Source of the DNA: Mesorhizobium xinjiangense
Lineage (GTDB): Bacteria > Pseudomonadota > Alphaproteobacteria > Rhizobiales > Rhizobiaceae
DNA length: 64,000 bases
Assembly (NCBI RefSeq): GCF_009749525.1
Contig: NZ_WOAC01000018.1
Location: forward strand, 1-64,000
Direction of reading: 5' to 3'
Position 1 is the first letter of the stretch. Every line of letters starts with the position of its first letter. A model generated the notes under the pieces. It was not told the DNA's origin. It saw nothing but the letters and a program-made list of their open reading frames with translations, and made no database searches. A program made the position numbers and the translations under genes. This document shows, one piece after another, positions 18,248 to 44,407 of the stretch.

Positions 18248-18278
18248 TCGCGGCACCGCAACGACAGTTTGGTGATTG

Positions 18279-19712
18279 ATGTCAGCCGACAAGAAGGAAG
18301 TCCGTCCCGCCGGCCGCAGAAGCCGCGCCAGAATTCCAGCATTCGTCATGAATCTCAGAGGTGTGCGCAACTGGAAGGAAGTCAGCGCCTGGCTGGAGTG
18401 GCGCGGCATCGAGGACATCGAATGCATCACGCCCGATCAGGGCGGCGTCGCCCGCGGCAAGATGATGCCGTCGAAGAAGTTCACCTCCAACACCTCGCTC
18501 GCTTTGCCGTCGGCTGTCTTCATGACGACCATCTCCGGCGGCTACCCCGAAAACAGCGGCGGTTTCACCTATCCCGAGGACGACGGCGACCTCAAGCTGC
18601 TGCCGGACCTTTCGACACTGTCCGTCGTGCCATGGGAATCGGACCCGACCGCGCAGGTCATCTGCGACCTGGTGCACCAGGACGGCCGCGAGGTCGAGTT
18701 CACGCCGCGCAACGTCCTCAAGCGCGTCATGCGCGCCTATGACGCGCACGGCTTCAAGCCGATCGTCGCCCCCGAGATCGAGTTCTACCTGGTCGACAAG
18801 AACCCCGACCCGGACTACCCGCTCACTCCCCCGGTCGGCCGCTCGGGCCGCCCGATCGGCGGCGGACAGGGCTATTCGATCGCCGGCGTCAACGAGTTCG
18901 ACGAGCTGATCGACGATATCTACGACTTTTCCGAAAAGCAGGGCCTGGAGATCGACACGCTCATCCACGAGGAGGGCGCCGGCCAGCTCGAGATCAATCT
19001 GCGCCATGGCGATCCGATCGAACTGGCCGACCAGGTCTTCATGTTCAAGCGCACGATCCGCGAGGCCGCGCTCAAGCACGACACCTATGCCACCTTCATG
19101 GCCAAGCCGATCCAGGGCCAGCCCGGTTCGGCGATGCATATCCACCAGTCGGTCATCGACAAGAAGACCGGCCGCAACATCTTCTCCAATGCCGATGGCA
19201 GCGAATCCGAAGCATTCCATCATTTCATCGGCGGTATGCAGCGCCACATGCCCAATGCGCTCGTGATGATGGCGCCCTATGTCAATTCCTACCGCCGGCT
19301 GACCCAGGCGGCGGCGGCGCCCGTCAATGCGAAATGGGGCTACGACAACCGCACCACCGCCTTCCGCGTGCCGCGCTCAGATCCGAGCGCGCGCCGCGTG
19401 GAAAACCGTATCCCGTCTTCCGACGCCAACCCCTATCTGGCCCTCGCCGGCTCGCTGACCTGCGGCCTCATAGGCATGCTGCAAAAGATCAAGCCCGACG
19501 CGCCGGTCGGCACGGCGGCCAACCAGGACGAGATCGACCTGCCGCGCGGCCTGCTGGAAGCCGTGCAGCTGTTCGAGGAGGACGAGGCGCTGCGCGACAT
19601 CCTCGGGACATCCTTGTGTTCCACCTACGCGGCGATCAAGAAGGCCGAGTTCGAGACCTTCATGGAAGTCATCAGCCCGTGGGAACGGGAGTATTTGTTG
19701 TTGAATGTTTAG
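18279..19712 (+). CDS. Glutamine-synthetase-family enzyme, likely gamma-glutamylputrescine synthetase
   Basis: A 477-residue GS-superfamily enzyme. The N-terminal part has ITPDQGGVARGKMMPSKKF, and the catalytic part has PEIEFYLVDKNPDPDYP near residue 165, EEGAGQLEINLRHGDP near 230 and ENRIPSSDANPYLALAGS near 375. It differs from the paralogue at 8909-10375 and has no adenylylation-type C-terminus. The oxidase downstream resembles PuuB, so the two would form the first two steps of the Puu route: glutamylation, then amine oxidation. The TAG stop at 19710-19712 shares its last base with the first octamer of the repeat array that follows. Confidence 0.84.
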   Translation: MSADKKEVRPAGRRSRARIPAFVMNLRGVRNWKEVSAWLEWRGIEDIECITPDQGGVARGKMMPSKKFTSNTSLALPSAVFMTTISGGYPENSGGFTYPEDDGDLKLLPDLSTLSVVPWESDPTAQVICDLVHQDGREVEFTPRNVLKRVMRAYDAHGFKPIVAPEIEFYLVDKNPDPDYPLTPPVGRSGRPIGGGQGYSIAGVNEFDELIDDIYDFSEKQGLEIDTLIHEEGAGQLEINLRHGDPIELADQVFMFKRTIREAALKHDTYATFMAKPIQGQPGSAMHIHQSVIDKKTGRNIFSNADGSESEAFHHFIGGMQRHMPNALVMMAPYVNSYRRLTQAAAAPVNAKWGYDNRTTAFRVPRSDPSARRVENRIPSSDANPYLALAGSLTCGLIGMLQKIKPDAPVGTAANQDEIDLPRGLLEAVQLFEEDEALRDILGTSLCSTYAAIKKAEFETFMEVISPWEREYLLLNV

Positions 19713-19769
19713 GGCAGTAGGGCAGTAGGGCAGTAGGGCAGTAGGGCAGTAGGGCAGTAGGGCAGTAGG
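19712..19769 (+). repeat. Left octamer array, seven copies of GGGCAGTA
   Basis: Seven perfect tandem copies of GGGCAGTA occupy 19712-19767, followed by a truncated eighth unit (GG, then AAAA) that runs into the ATG of the four-helix-bundle gene. The array begins on the last base of the preceding stop codon. The AGG of the final unit lies 4 bases before the ATG and is the only possible ribosome binding site there. The reverse complement of the unit forms a second array behind the gene. Confidence 0.97.
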
Positions 19770-19773
19770 AAAA

Positions 19774-20142
19774 ATGGCTGGAAAGATTGAACCCTACAAG
19801 GACCTTGTCGTCTGGCAGCAGGCTATGGATCTCGCGGCTGCGGTCTACGAGGCAACAAGAGCCTGGCCGAGGGACGAGATTTACGGCCTCACTGCGCAAG
19901 CCAGACGTGCGGCCAGTTCCGTGCCCGCCAACATTGCCGAGGATTTCGGCAGGGAAAATCGTGGCTCCTATCAGCAATTTCTGCGCATTGCCCAGGGCTC
20001 CCTAAAAGAGCTTGAAACGCATCTTCTGATTTCCCAGCGCGTCGGCATAGCCGGCGAAGGCTCAGTTCGCCCCTTGCTGCAGCTCAGCGAAAGCATCGGA
20101 AAGCTGTTACGCCTGCTCATCCGCAAGCTCTCCGCTGGATAA
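19774..20142 (+). CDS. Four-helix-bundle protein (23S rRNA intervening-sequence protein family)
   Basis: A 122-residue helical protein of the family first described from intervening sequences in 23S rRNA genes. Landmarks are YKDLVVWQQAMDLAAAVYEA (residues 7-26), LTAQARRAASSVPANIAEDF (38-57) and FLRIAQGSLKELETHLL (68-84). The fold is also shared with the accessory protein Avd of diversity-generating retroelements, but no reverse transcriptase or template repeat is present here. The gene is not in an rRNA operon. It lies between two polyamine genes and is bounded by inverted octamer arrays that would fold its mRNA into a closed stem-loop. Molecular function is unknown; nucleic-acid binding is suggested for the family. 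Confidence 0.88.
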   Translation: MAGKIEPYKDLVVWQQAMDLAAAVYEATRAWPRDEIYGLTAQARRAASSVPANIAEDFGRENRGSYQQFLRIAQGSLKELETHLLISQRVGIAGEGSVRPLLQLSESIGKLLRLLIRKLSAG

Positions 20143-20144
20143 CC

Positions 20145-20208
20145 TACTGCCCTACTGCCCTACTGCCCTACTGCCCTACTGCCCTATTCCCCTAATCCCC
20201 TACTCCCT
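20145..20208 (-). repeat. Right octamer array, five perfect and three degenerate copies of TACTGCCC
   Basis: Five perfect copies of TACTGCCC fill 20145-20184, followed by TATTCCCC, TAATCCCC and TACTCCCT. The perfect unit is the exact reverse complement of the left-array unit GGGCAGTA. The array starts two bases after the stop codon of the four-helix-bundle gene and ends nine bases before the start of the oxidase gene, so it fills the entire gap. Decay increases toward the oxidase side. Confidence 0.97.
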
Positions 20209-20217
20209 CAGCATCCC

Positions 20218-21507
20218 ATGCCCCCTTACCAATCCCCCATCTCCCCCGGCTATTCCTGGTATGAGGCGAGCCTCGGCGAACGGCCCGAATACCCCGCGCT
20301 CGACGGCGACACGCGGGCCGATGTCGTCATCGTCGGCGGCGGTTTCACCGGGCTCTCGGCGGCGGCGCATCTGGCGAAGGCGGGGAGCGACGTCGTGCTG
20401 ATCGAGGCGCACCGCTTCGGCGACGGCGCTTCGGGGCGCAATGGCGGCCAGATGGGCACCGGCCAGCGCGCCTGGGCGGAAGAGATGGAAGCCGAATTGG
20501 GGCTTTCGCGCGCCAAGGCGCTGTTTGGGCTGGCAGAGGAGGCCAAGACCCATCTGCTCGATTTCGCCGACGCCAACGGCATCGAGATCGACTACATGCC
20601 CGGCCAGATGTCGGTTGCCCACAAGAAGCGTTTCGTCGACGACTTCAAGGCGCATGCCGAGATCATGGCGACGCGCTTCGACTATCCGCACATCAGCTTC
20701 ATGGATGCAGCCGAGACCGAGCGCCGCCTCGGCTCCAAGCACTATTTCGGCGGTGTGCGCGACACGGGCACCGGCCATATCCATCCGCTCAAGCTGGTCG
20801 TCGGCACGGCGCGGGTCGCCGCGGCCGCCGGCGCCCGGCTCTTCGAGAACACCGCCTCCACCGGCCTTCAATCCACCGGCGGCAAGGTCCGCGTGACCAC
20901 GGCGCGCGGCACCATCACGGCCGACAAATGCCTCATCGCGGTCAACGCCTATGGCGGAAATCTCGAGCCGGTGAGCGCGGCGCATGTCATGCCGATCGGC
21001 TCCTTCATCGGCGCCACCGTGCCGCTGGGCGACGACAGTCCGGTGCTGCCGGGGCTGGAAAGCGTCGACGATTCGCGTTTCGTGGTGCGCTATTTCCGCC
21101 GGGTGAAGGACGGGCGGCTCTTGTTCGGCGGGCGCGAGGTCTACAACACCAACGACCCGAAAGACATCGCCAATCACATCCGCCGCCAGATCGCCGAGCT
21201 CTATCCCGCGCTCAACGATGTCGAGATCACCCATTCCTGGGGCGGCTATGTCGGCATCACCATGCCGCGCAAGCCCTTCGTGCGCGAGGTCATGCCGAAC
21301 GTGATCTCCGCCGGCGGCTTTTCAGGCCACGGCGTCATGCTGTCGAACTTCACCGGCAAGCTCTATGCCGAGGCCGTCGGCGGCAATCGCGACCGGCTGA
21401 AGCTGCTGGAGGAATTCAAGGTCCCGGCCTTCCCGGGCGGCCGCAGCCTGCGCGCGCCGCTGCTTTTCCTGGCGCTCAACTGGTACGCGCTGCGCGACCG
21501 GATCTGA
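20218..21507 (+). CDS. puuB: FAD-dependent oxidoreductase, gamma-glutamylputrescine oxidase-like
   Basis: A 429-residue DAO-type flavoenzyme. The dinucleotide-binding motif VVIVGGGFTGLSAAAHLAKAG lies near residue 37 and GDGASGRNGGQMGTGQR near 75; the C-terminal part has GGFSGHGVMLSNFTGKL near 365. It would oxidise gamma-glutamylputrescine to the aldehyde with release of ammonia and hydrogen peroxide. The length equals PuuB. The start is fixed by the family N-terminus (YQSPISPG), but there is no purine-rich binding site before it, because the octamer array occupies that place. Specificity is inferred from the adjacent GS-like gene. Confidence 0.8.
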   Translation: MPPYQSPISPGYSWYEASLGERPEYPALDGDTRADVVIVGGGFTGLSAAAHLAKAGSDVVLIEAHRFGDGASGRNGGQMGTGQRAWAEEMEAELGLSRAKALFGLAEEAKTHLLDFADANGIEIDYMPGQMSVAHKKRFVDDFKAHAEIMATRFDYPHISFMDAAETERRLGSKHYFGGVRDTGTGHIHPLKLVVGTARVAAAAGARLFENTASTGLQSTGGKVRVTTARGTITADKCLIAVNAYGGNLEPVSAAHVMPIGSFIGATVPLGDDSPVLPGLESVDDSRFVVRYFRRVKDGRLLFGGREVYNTNDPKDIANHIRRQIAELYPALNDVEITHSWGGYVGITMPRKPFVREVMPNVISAGGFSGHGVMLSNFTGKLYAEAVGGNRDRLKLLEEFKVPAFPGGRSLRAPLLFLALNWYALRDRI

Positions 21508-24288: not shown

Positions 24289-24624
24289 TCATTCAATTTC
24301 CTTGCGAACGGCCTCTTCGAGCCCGTCCAGATGATTGAGGACTGTGTTCCACAGAAAGCGCGGCAGAACATCCTCGTAGTCATGGCGATAGACATTGCCC
24401 GCGCCCGCGATCCGATCCCATGGCACTTCTGGATGGCGGGCCTTCAGGACGTCCGGGAGCCGTCGCGACGCCTCAGAGATGATCTCAAGGCAGCGCGTCA
24501 CGGCGTACAGGGTCCGCTCGTCCTCGGCGAACGCCTCATAGGACAATCCATCGACGAACCGGTGCGCGAGAGTAATGTTATCGCGGATAGCTTCCAGCAC
24601 ACGGGACGTATCCCTAGAAGGCAT
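24289..24624 (-). CDS. HepT-like toxin (DUF86 family)
   Basis: A 111-residue helical protein of the HepT/DUF86 family, RNase-type toxins of the HepT-MntA module. The family core WDRIAGAGNVYRHDYEDVLP (residues 69-88) holds the conserved histidine and the tyrosine that MntA-type enzymes modify by AMPylation. Compared with the classical R-x4-H form, the arginine lies directly before the histidine (YRHDY), as in a known sub-branch. Its start overlaps the end of the nucleotidyltransferase gene by 11 bases, so antitoxin is made first. Confidence 0.85.
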   Translation of the reverse strand: MPSRDTSRVLEAIRDNITLAHRFVDGLSYEAFAEDERTLYAVTRCLEIISEASRRLPDVLKARHPEVPWDRIAGAGNVYRHDYEDVLPRFLWNTVLNHLDGLEEAVRKEIE

Positions 24625-24910
24625 GGACGGACCCAGTCCGGACGGCTTGCCTCAGATCGGATTTCAATCCTTCTGCGTTCACCACATCCACCGGCCCCTC
24701 GAACATCCCGGCAATGTATGCCTTCAAGCCGACATAGTCGTAGACGCTCAGAGGCACATCCGGATCAAGATCGATCAGGATGTCGATGTCGCTGTCGGGT
24801 TGCGCATTTCCCCTGGCAACGGAGCCGAAGAGGGCCGCATGGGTTACGCCCTGCTTGCGCAACTCGCCCTTGTGCCGCTGGAGCGTCTTGATGATTTGCT
24901 TACAATCCAT
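24614..24910 (-). CDS. MntA-like nucleotidyltransferase antitoxin
   Basis: A 98-residue minimal nucleotidyltransferase. ALFGSVARGNAQPDSDIDIL (residues 26-45) contains the GS-x2-RG signature and the paired metal-binding aspartates DID; the third acidic residue is in GPVDVV near 75. In HepT-MntA modules this enzyme silences the toxin by adding AMP to its tyrosine. All catalytic residues are present. It lies directly upstream of, and overlaps, the toxin gene; the pair stands between an SDR and an aldehyde dehydrogenase gene. Confidence 0.88.
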   Translation of the reverse strand: MDCKQIIKTLQRHKGELRKQGVTHAALFGSVARGNAQPDSDIDILIDLDPDVPLSVYDYVGLKAYIAGMFEGPVDVVNAEGLKSDLRQAVRTGSVHAF

Positions 24911-44364: not shown

Positions 44365-44398
44365 TGCTCTACCGTGCCTAGTGCTCTACCGTGCCTAG
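44365..44398. repeat. Tandem 17-base duplication between nspC and the dehydrogenase gene
   Basis: TGCTCTACCGTGCCTAG is present twice without a break (44365-44381 and 44382-44398), within the 60-base gap. It looks like a recent duplication by replication slippage. It lengthens the distance between the nspC stop and the next ribosome binding site. Confidence 0.95.
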
Positions 44399-44407
44399 TC
44401 AAACTTT

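Follow-up and report, generated by a model that had tools for sequence, protein, structure and literature searches.

The closest described relatives of the locus reported here are the intervening sequences (IVSs) found in the 23S rRNA of Leptospira, Coxiella and Brucella. The Coxiella IVS carries an S23p gene and variable heptamer repeats, and RNase III cleaves within its 28-bp stem (PMC4990558). In the same report, the function and origin of 23S IVSs are termed unclear (PMC4990558). We analysed 64,000 nucleotides of a Mesorhizobium xinjiangense contig (NZ_WOAC01000018.1, hereafter the window), in which a gene of the same protein family (Pfam PF05635, 23S_rRNA_IVP; hereafter IVP) is enclosed by two inverted arrays of a tandem octamer. 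Like the IVSs of the three genera, the window insert combines an S23p/IVP family gene with terminal inverted repeats. As in Coxiella, tandem repeats (there GACAGAT heptamers) stand just upstream of the gene, and the sizes are similar, 428 nt in Coxiella and about 500 nt in the window (PMC4990558). Unlike a 23S IVS, the window insert is flanked by protein genes rather than lying in 23S rRNA, both of its arms are long tandem arrays, and its cutting by RNase III is putative.

The insert and its empty sites

The whole insert measured 497 bases (19712-20208) and lay between a glutamine-synthetase-like (GS) gene and the gene of an FAD-dependent oxidoreductase (DAO). The features of the locus are listed below.

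18276-19712, + strand: upstream host gene, glutamine-synthetase-like (Pfam Gln-synt_C, E 1.6e-105; NCBIfam; open reading frame list)
19710-19769, + strand: left arm, an array of 7.5 octamers, TAGGGCAG (= GGGCAGTA), in which the G-rich strand comes first (Tandem Repeats Finder, TRF; 100% matches)
19767-19770, + strand: AGGA, possible ribosome-binding site of the IVP gene, at tight spacing (proposed from sequence and fold)
19774-20142, + strand: IVP gene, 122 aa, four-helix bundle, 23S rRNA intervening-sequence family (PF05635, TIGR02436, NF008911)
20143-20208, + strand: right arm, inverted relative to the left one and built of TACTGCCC units, of which five are perfect and three degraded (TRF, pattern search)
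20218-21507, + strand: downstream host gene, FAD-dependent oxidoreductase (Pfam DAO, E 2.7e-66)

NCBIfam placed the GS-like reading frame with the gamma-glutamylputrescine synthetase type, yet under the cut-off of that model. Seven perfect GGGCAGTA units occupied 19712-19767, the first of them overlapping the TAG stop codon of GS (19710-19712), and a gap of 9 bases separated the right arm from the DAO gene. The arrays thus touch the upstream stop codon and nearly touch the downstream start codon, as a preliminary sequence-only reading of the window had stated. Its description of inverted octamer arrays around the gene stood for the seven and five perfect units recovered by TRF, but the two arms are unequal: the perfect TACTGCCC units (20145-20184) are followed by degraded ones up to 20208, the arm degenerating outward through CTATTCCC, CTAATCCC and CTACTCCC. 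The 16-base double octamer unit was unique to this locus in the 5.26 Mb genome, where the reversed control pattern gave no match. The genome contained a single PF05635 gene, and the pattern search detected no free octamer array elsewhere in its 5.26 Mb.

In the predicted RNA fold the arrays paired around the gene, with a longest unbroken run of 46 pairs (z = -10.4; 0 of 100 shuffles equally stable), in line with the earlier suggestion that they could close the gene into a loop. Complementary ends closing the insert as a stem, as in an IVS, were indicated by this fold and by the arm scores given below. The candidate ribosome-binding site lay at the gene-proximal end of the left arm, and its AGG fell within the predicted stem. 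No Rfam match was found in 19500-20500 up to an E value of 1.

Assignment of the protein to the 23S rRNA intervening-sequence family was borne out by PF05635 (E 1.6e-32), TIGR02436 and NF008911. By sequence it matched the Xcc0516 structure (PDB 2gsc, E 1.1e-20). A structure model with a predicted local distance difference test score (pLDDT) of 90.9 matched 2gsc, the S23-family structure 2rld and 4dwl in Foldseek, and the match to Avd, of diversity-generating retroelements (DGRs), was weaker than those to 2gsc and 2rld. By analogy with Xcc0516, the protein is probably pentameric. Among 25 intact copies from the GS/DAO junction, the median omega was 0.074 in the 54 of 300 pairs with 0.1 < dS < 1.5; the remaining pairs fell outside that range, and the value is approximate because dS was high. 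Purifying selection appears to act on the IVP protein. It seems maintained, and therefore would do something for the element.

The GS/DAO junction was sampled in 61 family genomes (30 loci, that of the window included), three genus-mates and 71 Mesorhizobium genomes. Of the last group, 69 had the oxidoreductase and 66 junctions were read, G117, G375 and G367 being left out. Eight of the resulting 99 loci had no recognisable junction. The 91 readable junctions were divided into 25 empty ones, 30 with an IVP gene (window included) and 36 others, "empty" denoting fewer than 70 nt between the last GS sense codon and a conserved motif near the DAO start. This distance was 21-25 nt in empty Mesorhizobium junctions and 523 in the window, and occupied and empty junctions differed by the entire insert. 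Since the junction is empty in relatives (25 of 91), the stretch between the two genes is an insert, a conclusion that the sequence-only reading had anticipated. No IVP gene was detected in the three genus-mates. The GS stop codon was TAG, supplied by the array, in 20 of the 30 occupied junctions and in 3 of the 25 empty ones (p 8e-5). Because the array overlaps the stop codon, the edges of the insert cannot be placed and a target site duplication is unreadable.

Between 23 and 25 of the 36 other junctions held small gene-less inverted arrays, recognised by eye, with units including GCGAATA, GTGAATGG, GTGAGTA and GGCAGTCGG. Two further junctions carried different inserts, one of about 0.6 kb resembling a putative small toxin-antitoxin pair (L051) and one of 1.4 kb (L055), and GS/DAO may for this reason be an insertion hot spot. 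In the empty junctions L181 and L195 the oxidoreductase start was preceded by TAGGGCAC, which may be a single unit left behind by a lost array. In Mesorhizobium sp. B2-4-3 (L022) the IVP gene stood reversed beside the same oxidoreductase, by eye as if the arms had recombined; this contig stops short of the synthetase side.

Inverted arms around IVP genes in the sampled genomes

Of 299 genomes sampled across the phylum, 52 contained PF05635, as did 93 of 297 sampled from the family. An arm score, obtained by aligning the left flank to the inverted right flank, could be calculated for 147 of the 151 fetched IVP copies; weak or partial PF05635 matches (roughly E > 1e-8) were not fetched. The median score was 24 for IVP copies and 10.5 for 507 same-locus controls. 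It exceeded the control 95th percentile in 127 of the 147 copies and the 99th in 109, and in the phylum draw alone 45 of 62 copies were above the 95th. A search for IVP genes with inverted short tandem repeats in other genomes, proposed earlier as a check, was therefore strongly positive. The 161 usable copies formed 37 site clusters, 27 of them single; the free-array and site-cluster counts, unlike the arm scoring, also included 14 stretches and a small number of GS/DAO and octamer loci. The largest clusters were nuoC/nuoD (55 copies), GS/DAO (26) and an ATP-grasp/alpha-E junction (25), the first and last names being our reading of the flanks rather than database-derived.

Inverted arms around IVP genes were also seen by eye in Fibrobacter, in an Anaerolineales bacterium and in others. 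The surveyed copies L096 and L136 had, by eye, direct arrays. Two copies from one genome (L129 and L130, G281) lay inside 23S rRNA genes and had arms of the same kind; the operon insert thus has its anatomy in common with at least this one 23S IVS, as the earlier claim of a common design had it. At the level of sequence, these comparisons show a stem-closed array architecture to be general for the PF05635 family in the sampled genomes.

The median RNA duplex energy of the arms was -100 kcal/mol, against -78 for permuted arms and -87 for control flanks, and only 33 of 147 copies were below the control 5th percentile. Because duplex energies depend strongly on GC content, the argument about the arms rests on the alignment scores. 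Picking the true partner arm by k-mers was weak (top rank in 28 of 147, median rank 6). The upstream gene was co-directional in 32 of 37 site clusters, with one copy taken from each, in a crude orientation test; for the downstream gene this test is unreliable in GC-rich DNA, and its outcome was set aside.

The two arms of a copy matched each other across many different units. Among the 55 nuoC/nuoD copies, whose units included GAATGGT, GCGAATA, GTGAGTA, GTCGGTC, GGCAGTC and others, the within-copy arm match was 22.2, compared with 12.4 when permuted (sd 0.68), and 0 of 20000 permutations reached the observed value. At the ATP-grasp/alpha-E junction (25 copies) the match was 23.1 against 14.0, again reached by no permutation. 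The gap was smaller for the 26 GS/DAO copies, which mostly shared a unit (25.7 against 22.3, p 1.5e-4). Matching by k-mers at this junction gave p 6.5e-4 for 30 IVP copies and p<=5e-5 for 25 gene-less inserts; the gene-less inserts were chosen by eye, 25 for arm matching and 23 for polarity. Irregular units common to both arms of a copy were also noted by eye, for example GTCAGTA in L090. Between copies at different sites, arm similarity was 0.20, 0.25 and 0.50 at IVP identities below 0.5, of 0.5-0.7 and above, and at shared sites it was 0.30, 0.37 and 0.59 across the same classes. Similarity thus climbed with IVP protein identity, with a smaller effect of the shared site. The sequence-only reading had named unrelated arrays in related strains as evidence against itself. 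Units did differ literally between relatives, yet the arms within each copy still matched, and this matching despite differing units strengthens the pairing idea.

Period and polarity were far more uniform than the units. Among periods of 5-12, arrays were strong solely for 7 (79 copies) and 8 (29 copies), the other 53 copies being weak. A G-skewed left arm and a C-skewed right arm occurred together in 144 of 161 copies, and the opposite arrangement in one. Gene-less GS/DAO inserts had the G-rich arm first in 21 of 23 cases and the reverse in none. Stop codons closed all three reading frames of the left arm in 108 of 161 copies, those of the opposite strand of the same stretch in 9 of 161, and those of control stretches in 2 of 322; the opposite strand is the better comparison because the control stretches are partly coding. 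This bias agreed in 28 of 34 informative site clusters. Judged by the sequences compared, pairing, a period of 7 or 8 and polarity are shown to be conserved, and the unit sequence is not.

Gene-less arrays and the cognate IVP gene

Octamer arrays of at least three exact units were not restricted to IVP loci, and were found in 27 of the 297 family genomes. Among the matches listed, 31 octamer regions were fetched, of which 3 enclosed an IVP gene and 28 were gene-less; these regions exclude junctions already known to hold IVP, and the gene-less share is thus overstated. In most of the 28, a short spacer separated the array from an inverse partner that had decayed. The inverse partner was downstream of the free array in 22 of the 28, upstream in none and unclear in 6. 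Octamer arrays outside an IVP element were present in 12 of 25 genomes with an octamer-armed IVP, in 6 of 68 with another IVP and in 5 of 204 with no IVP (octamer-armed group against the rest of the family genomes, p 5.5e-9).

A similar association was found within Mesorhizobium, where free octamer arrays of the GGGC or GGGG form occurred in 24 of 25 genomes with the octamer IVP subfamily and in 22 of 36 without it (Fisher p 0.002). The first figure omits 10 genomes that had no readable IVP copy at GS/DAO and whose IVP arms could therefore not be subtracted; with them it becomes 34 of 35, in favour of the link. The subfamily was assigned by hand, as matches ending near model position 104 together with shortened copies. 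With relatedness taken from the GS gene, the association persisted in a partial Mantel test (p 0.0008), and in 25 matched pairs the genome with the octamer IVP had more arrays in 17, fewer in 7 and equal numbers in 1 (p 0.002). Non-octamer IVP genes had no detectable effect on free octamer arrays in Mesorhizobium (p 0.35). IVP arms and free arrays had correlated GGGC:GGGG ratios (rho 0.71, n=24), and this correlation of unit type also held in a partial Mantel test (p 0.0025). A single gene is a thin proxy for relatedness, which makes the control partial. For this reason, and because 22 of 36 genomes lacking the subfamily still have free arrays, the dependence of arrays on IVP is statistical rather than strict.

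Three gene-less octamer inserts from two genomes of one genus (L218, L219 and L220) had a common spacer with a hairpin-like GTTGCGG...CCGCAAC core, resembling a small amplified family. Elsewhere in the window, HepT-like and nucleotidyltransferase genes adjoin at 24289-24910 (- strand) in a HepT/MNT toxin-antitoxin layout, and a 17-base perfect tandem repeat (2.1 copies) lies at 44365-44399.

Proposed mechanism, rival explanations and known systems

The reading we favour, with moderate confidence, is that of a selfish insert of the IVS class residing in protein operons, its PF05635 gene enclosed by a stem in which pairing, not sequence, is maintained, and accompanied by gene-less satellites. 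The insert takes the form of a PF05635 gene between inverted 7- or 8-mer arrays, lodged between a stop codon and the next start codon. In a read-through operon transcript the arms would form a long stem, which RNase III probably cuts, by analogy with 23S IVSs. The cut would separate two host cistrons that both stay translatable, leaving the insert nearly harmless, and three-frame stops in the first arm would prevent ribosomes translating the upstream gene from entering the stem. RNA processing had also been raised by the sequence-only reading, as a way in which the insert might tolerate or control its placement; both processing and such control are putative. The IVP protein may act in trans on stems or arrays, spreading or maintaining them, and gene-less arrays would be its satellites. 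Action in trans is suggested by the correlation of free arrays with IVP; sequence-specific recognition by the protein is unlikely because the units are so varied.

Several observations weigh against this account. Five of the 204 family genomes without IVP still carry octamer arrays, and 13 of the 25 with an octamer-armed IVP have no free one. In Mesorhizobium, the 22 of 36 genomes with free arrays but without the octamer subfamily point the same way, as does G394, with 41 octamer 24-mers and no IVP. Twenty of the 147 scored copies, 17 of them from the 62 of the phylum draw, failed the control 95th percentile, and in L096, L136 and L118 the arrays were direct instead of inverted or the arms did not match. 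Because the copies are related, they cannot be counted as independent events. None of the copies surveyed was seen to be a recent insertion flanked by a target duplication. Three conserved junctions account for most copies (55, 26 and 25 of 161), and movement is therefore rare or old. Finally, the S23p gene of Coxiella is judged by its authors as probably not expressed (PMC4990558).

The insert might instead be a DNA-level mobile system. REPIN/RAYT systems have paired inverted repeats built on one conserved palindrome, a Y1 transposase and intergenic, gene-less copies that follow the cognate gene. In a system of this kind the arrays would be ends or recognition sites, IVP would confer mobility in trans, array pairs without a gene would be the non-autonomous copies, and RNA would have no role. 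We regard this as possible but rather unlikely. It would account for the dependence of gene-less arrays on whether a cognate IVP is present and on its unit type, for the existence of empty sites and for the sharing of units by different-site copies with IVP identity of at least 0.7 (147 pairs, 0.50 against 0.25 at 0.5-0.7). However, the sole gene inside the insert is the PF05635 gene, with no transposase or recombinase gene in the element. Nor was a transposase, recombinase or reverse transcriptase found among 12 proteins scanned at 14.2-26.5 kb in and around it; these were not every open reading frame, and the rest of the genome was not searched. The wide variety of units beside a conserved protein also fits sequence-specific recognition poorly, and most copies remain at the three conserved sites.

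How the arms stay matched has a serious alternative, which we consider unlikely and which is compatible with the other readings. Inverted arrays may anneal in single-stranded DNA at replication, one arm then being copied from the other by template switching or mismatch repair. Mutations of this type are known from quasi-palindrome correction, and the irregular GTCAGTA units common to both arms of L090 (by eye) would be expected from it. Against it, the loop between the window arms is about 370 nt long, and copying alone explains neither polarity (144 of 161), nor three-frame stops, nor the genome-wide sharing of units.

Chance proximity is improbable. In this explanation the arrays are slippage-prone host regulatory repeats, acting as hairpins or G-quadruplexes, among which IVP happened to land. 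The 28 of 31 listed octamer regions that were gene-less, a share overstated by selection, would agree with it, as would the Xanthomonas repeats, which lie between genes, are mostly transcribed and keep their positions (PMC4692102). Yet the arms flanking IVP are matched far above local controls, and the association of free arrays with the cognate IVP holds under partial control for relatedness. A G-quadruplex was ruled out as the shared feature because three consecutive G are missing from many units (GAATGGT, GCGAATA, GTGAGTA).

It is very doubtful that the arrays arose by templated addition of terminal repeats, with an Avd-like IVP as partner of a host reverse transcriptase in a mobile element. 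Addition would be telomere-like, at both 3' ends of a linear intermediate and from one short template, and both arms would therefore switch unit together; both 3' ends of the insert do carry the same C-rich repeat, with near-constant polarity and of 7 or 8 bases where strong. Equally doubtful is a host-adapted intercistronic attenuator or processing element, in which the stem sets the ratio of the flanking genes and IVP regulates the stem: long retention at nuoC/nuoD, GS/DAO and ATP-grasp/alpha-E across many genomes and the omega of 0.074 would suit it, but the GS/DAO junction is empty (25 of 91) or holds other inserts (36 of 91) in relatives, and 204 of 297 family genomes have no IVP.

Compared with known systems, the IVP element resembles REPIN/RAYT in its inverted repeat pair, its intergenic site and its gene-less copies, which follow the cognate gene statistically, with exceptions, in Mesorhizobium and in the family. 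Unlike REPIN/RAYT, its repeats are 7/8-mer arrays of variable sequence. No Y1 (HUH) transposase was found inside the element or among the 12 scanned proteins, a distant one elsewhere in the genome not being sought. Avd has the same fold as IVP in Foldseek (4dwl, TMq 0.76; 8ubb and others), with just 12-14% identity in the structural alignments. Homology of PF05635 and Avd has been proposed as likely (PMC10053308), and 18 IVP genes have been reported in cas loci (PMC3936711). A DGR reverse transcriptase was not among the 12 proteins from 14.2-26.5 kb; template and variable repeats were not sought, and the scan did not extend to the rest of the genome.

The Brucella octamer AGGGCAGT is a cyclic permutation of the window octamer GGGCAGTA. 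It is the typing marker of HOOF-Print and multilocus variable-number tandem repeat analysis, with hypervariable copy number at eight loci, and the available text of these reports describes it without link to IVP genes or inverted pairs (PMC7589603, PMC9416531, PMC1183211). Our comparison is with this published description. Typing employs eight unique forward primers and two types of reverse primer (PMC9416531), which hints at a shared flank of the octamer loci.

In Xanthomonas and Nostoc, GGGNATC/GGGGAYT heptamers are over-represented in non-coding regions and mostly transcribed; they have been interpreted as G-quadruplex formers, and those of Xanthomonas are generally unassociated with mobile elements (PMC4692102). 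Like the IVP arms, the Xanthomonas repeats have a 7-base unit and occur as convergent inverted pairs, with 70 (Xcc) and 75 (Xac) such pairs of GGGAATC arrays (PMC4692102). The terms "four-helix" and "S23" have no occurrence in the text of that paper (PMC4692102). One surveyed IVP copy, L137, had arms of this very unit, GGGAATC.

Among the papers listed by a search of titles and abstract openings, with subscription journals and preprints mostly outside it, none appeared to join IVP genes with inverted tandem arrays. The element had been called undescribed by the sequence-only reading, which is true at most of the combination: the rRNA IVS, the Brucella octamer and the Xanthomonas heptamers were each published separately, and their combination is new as far as the literature found. 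The survey gives the IVS gene family a genome-wide anatomy, of paired 7/8-mer arrays, fixed polarity and gene-less satellites, and with it the old idea of IVSs as mobile elements becomes directly testable. The recurrence of the same design in other bacteria, with repeats that differ widely yet agree within each copy, suggests that a single class of parasitic DNA insert has been overlooked, of which the Brucella typing octamers and the Xanthomonas heptamers could be parts.

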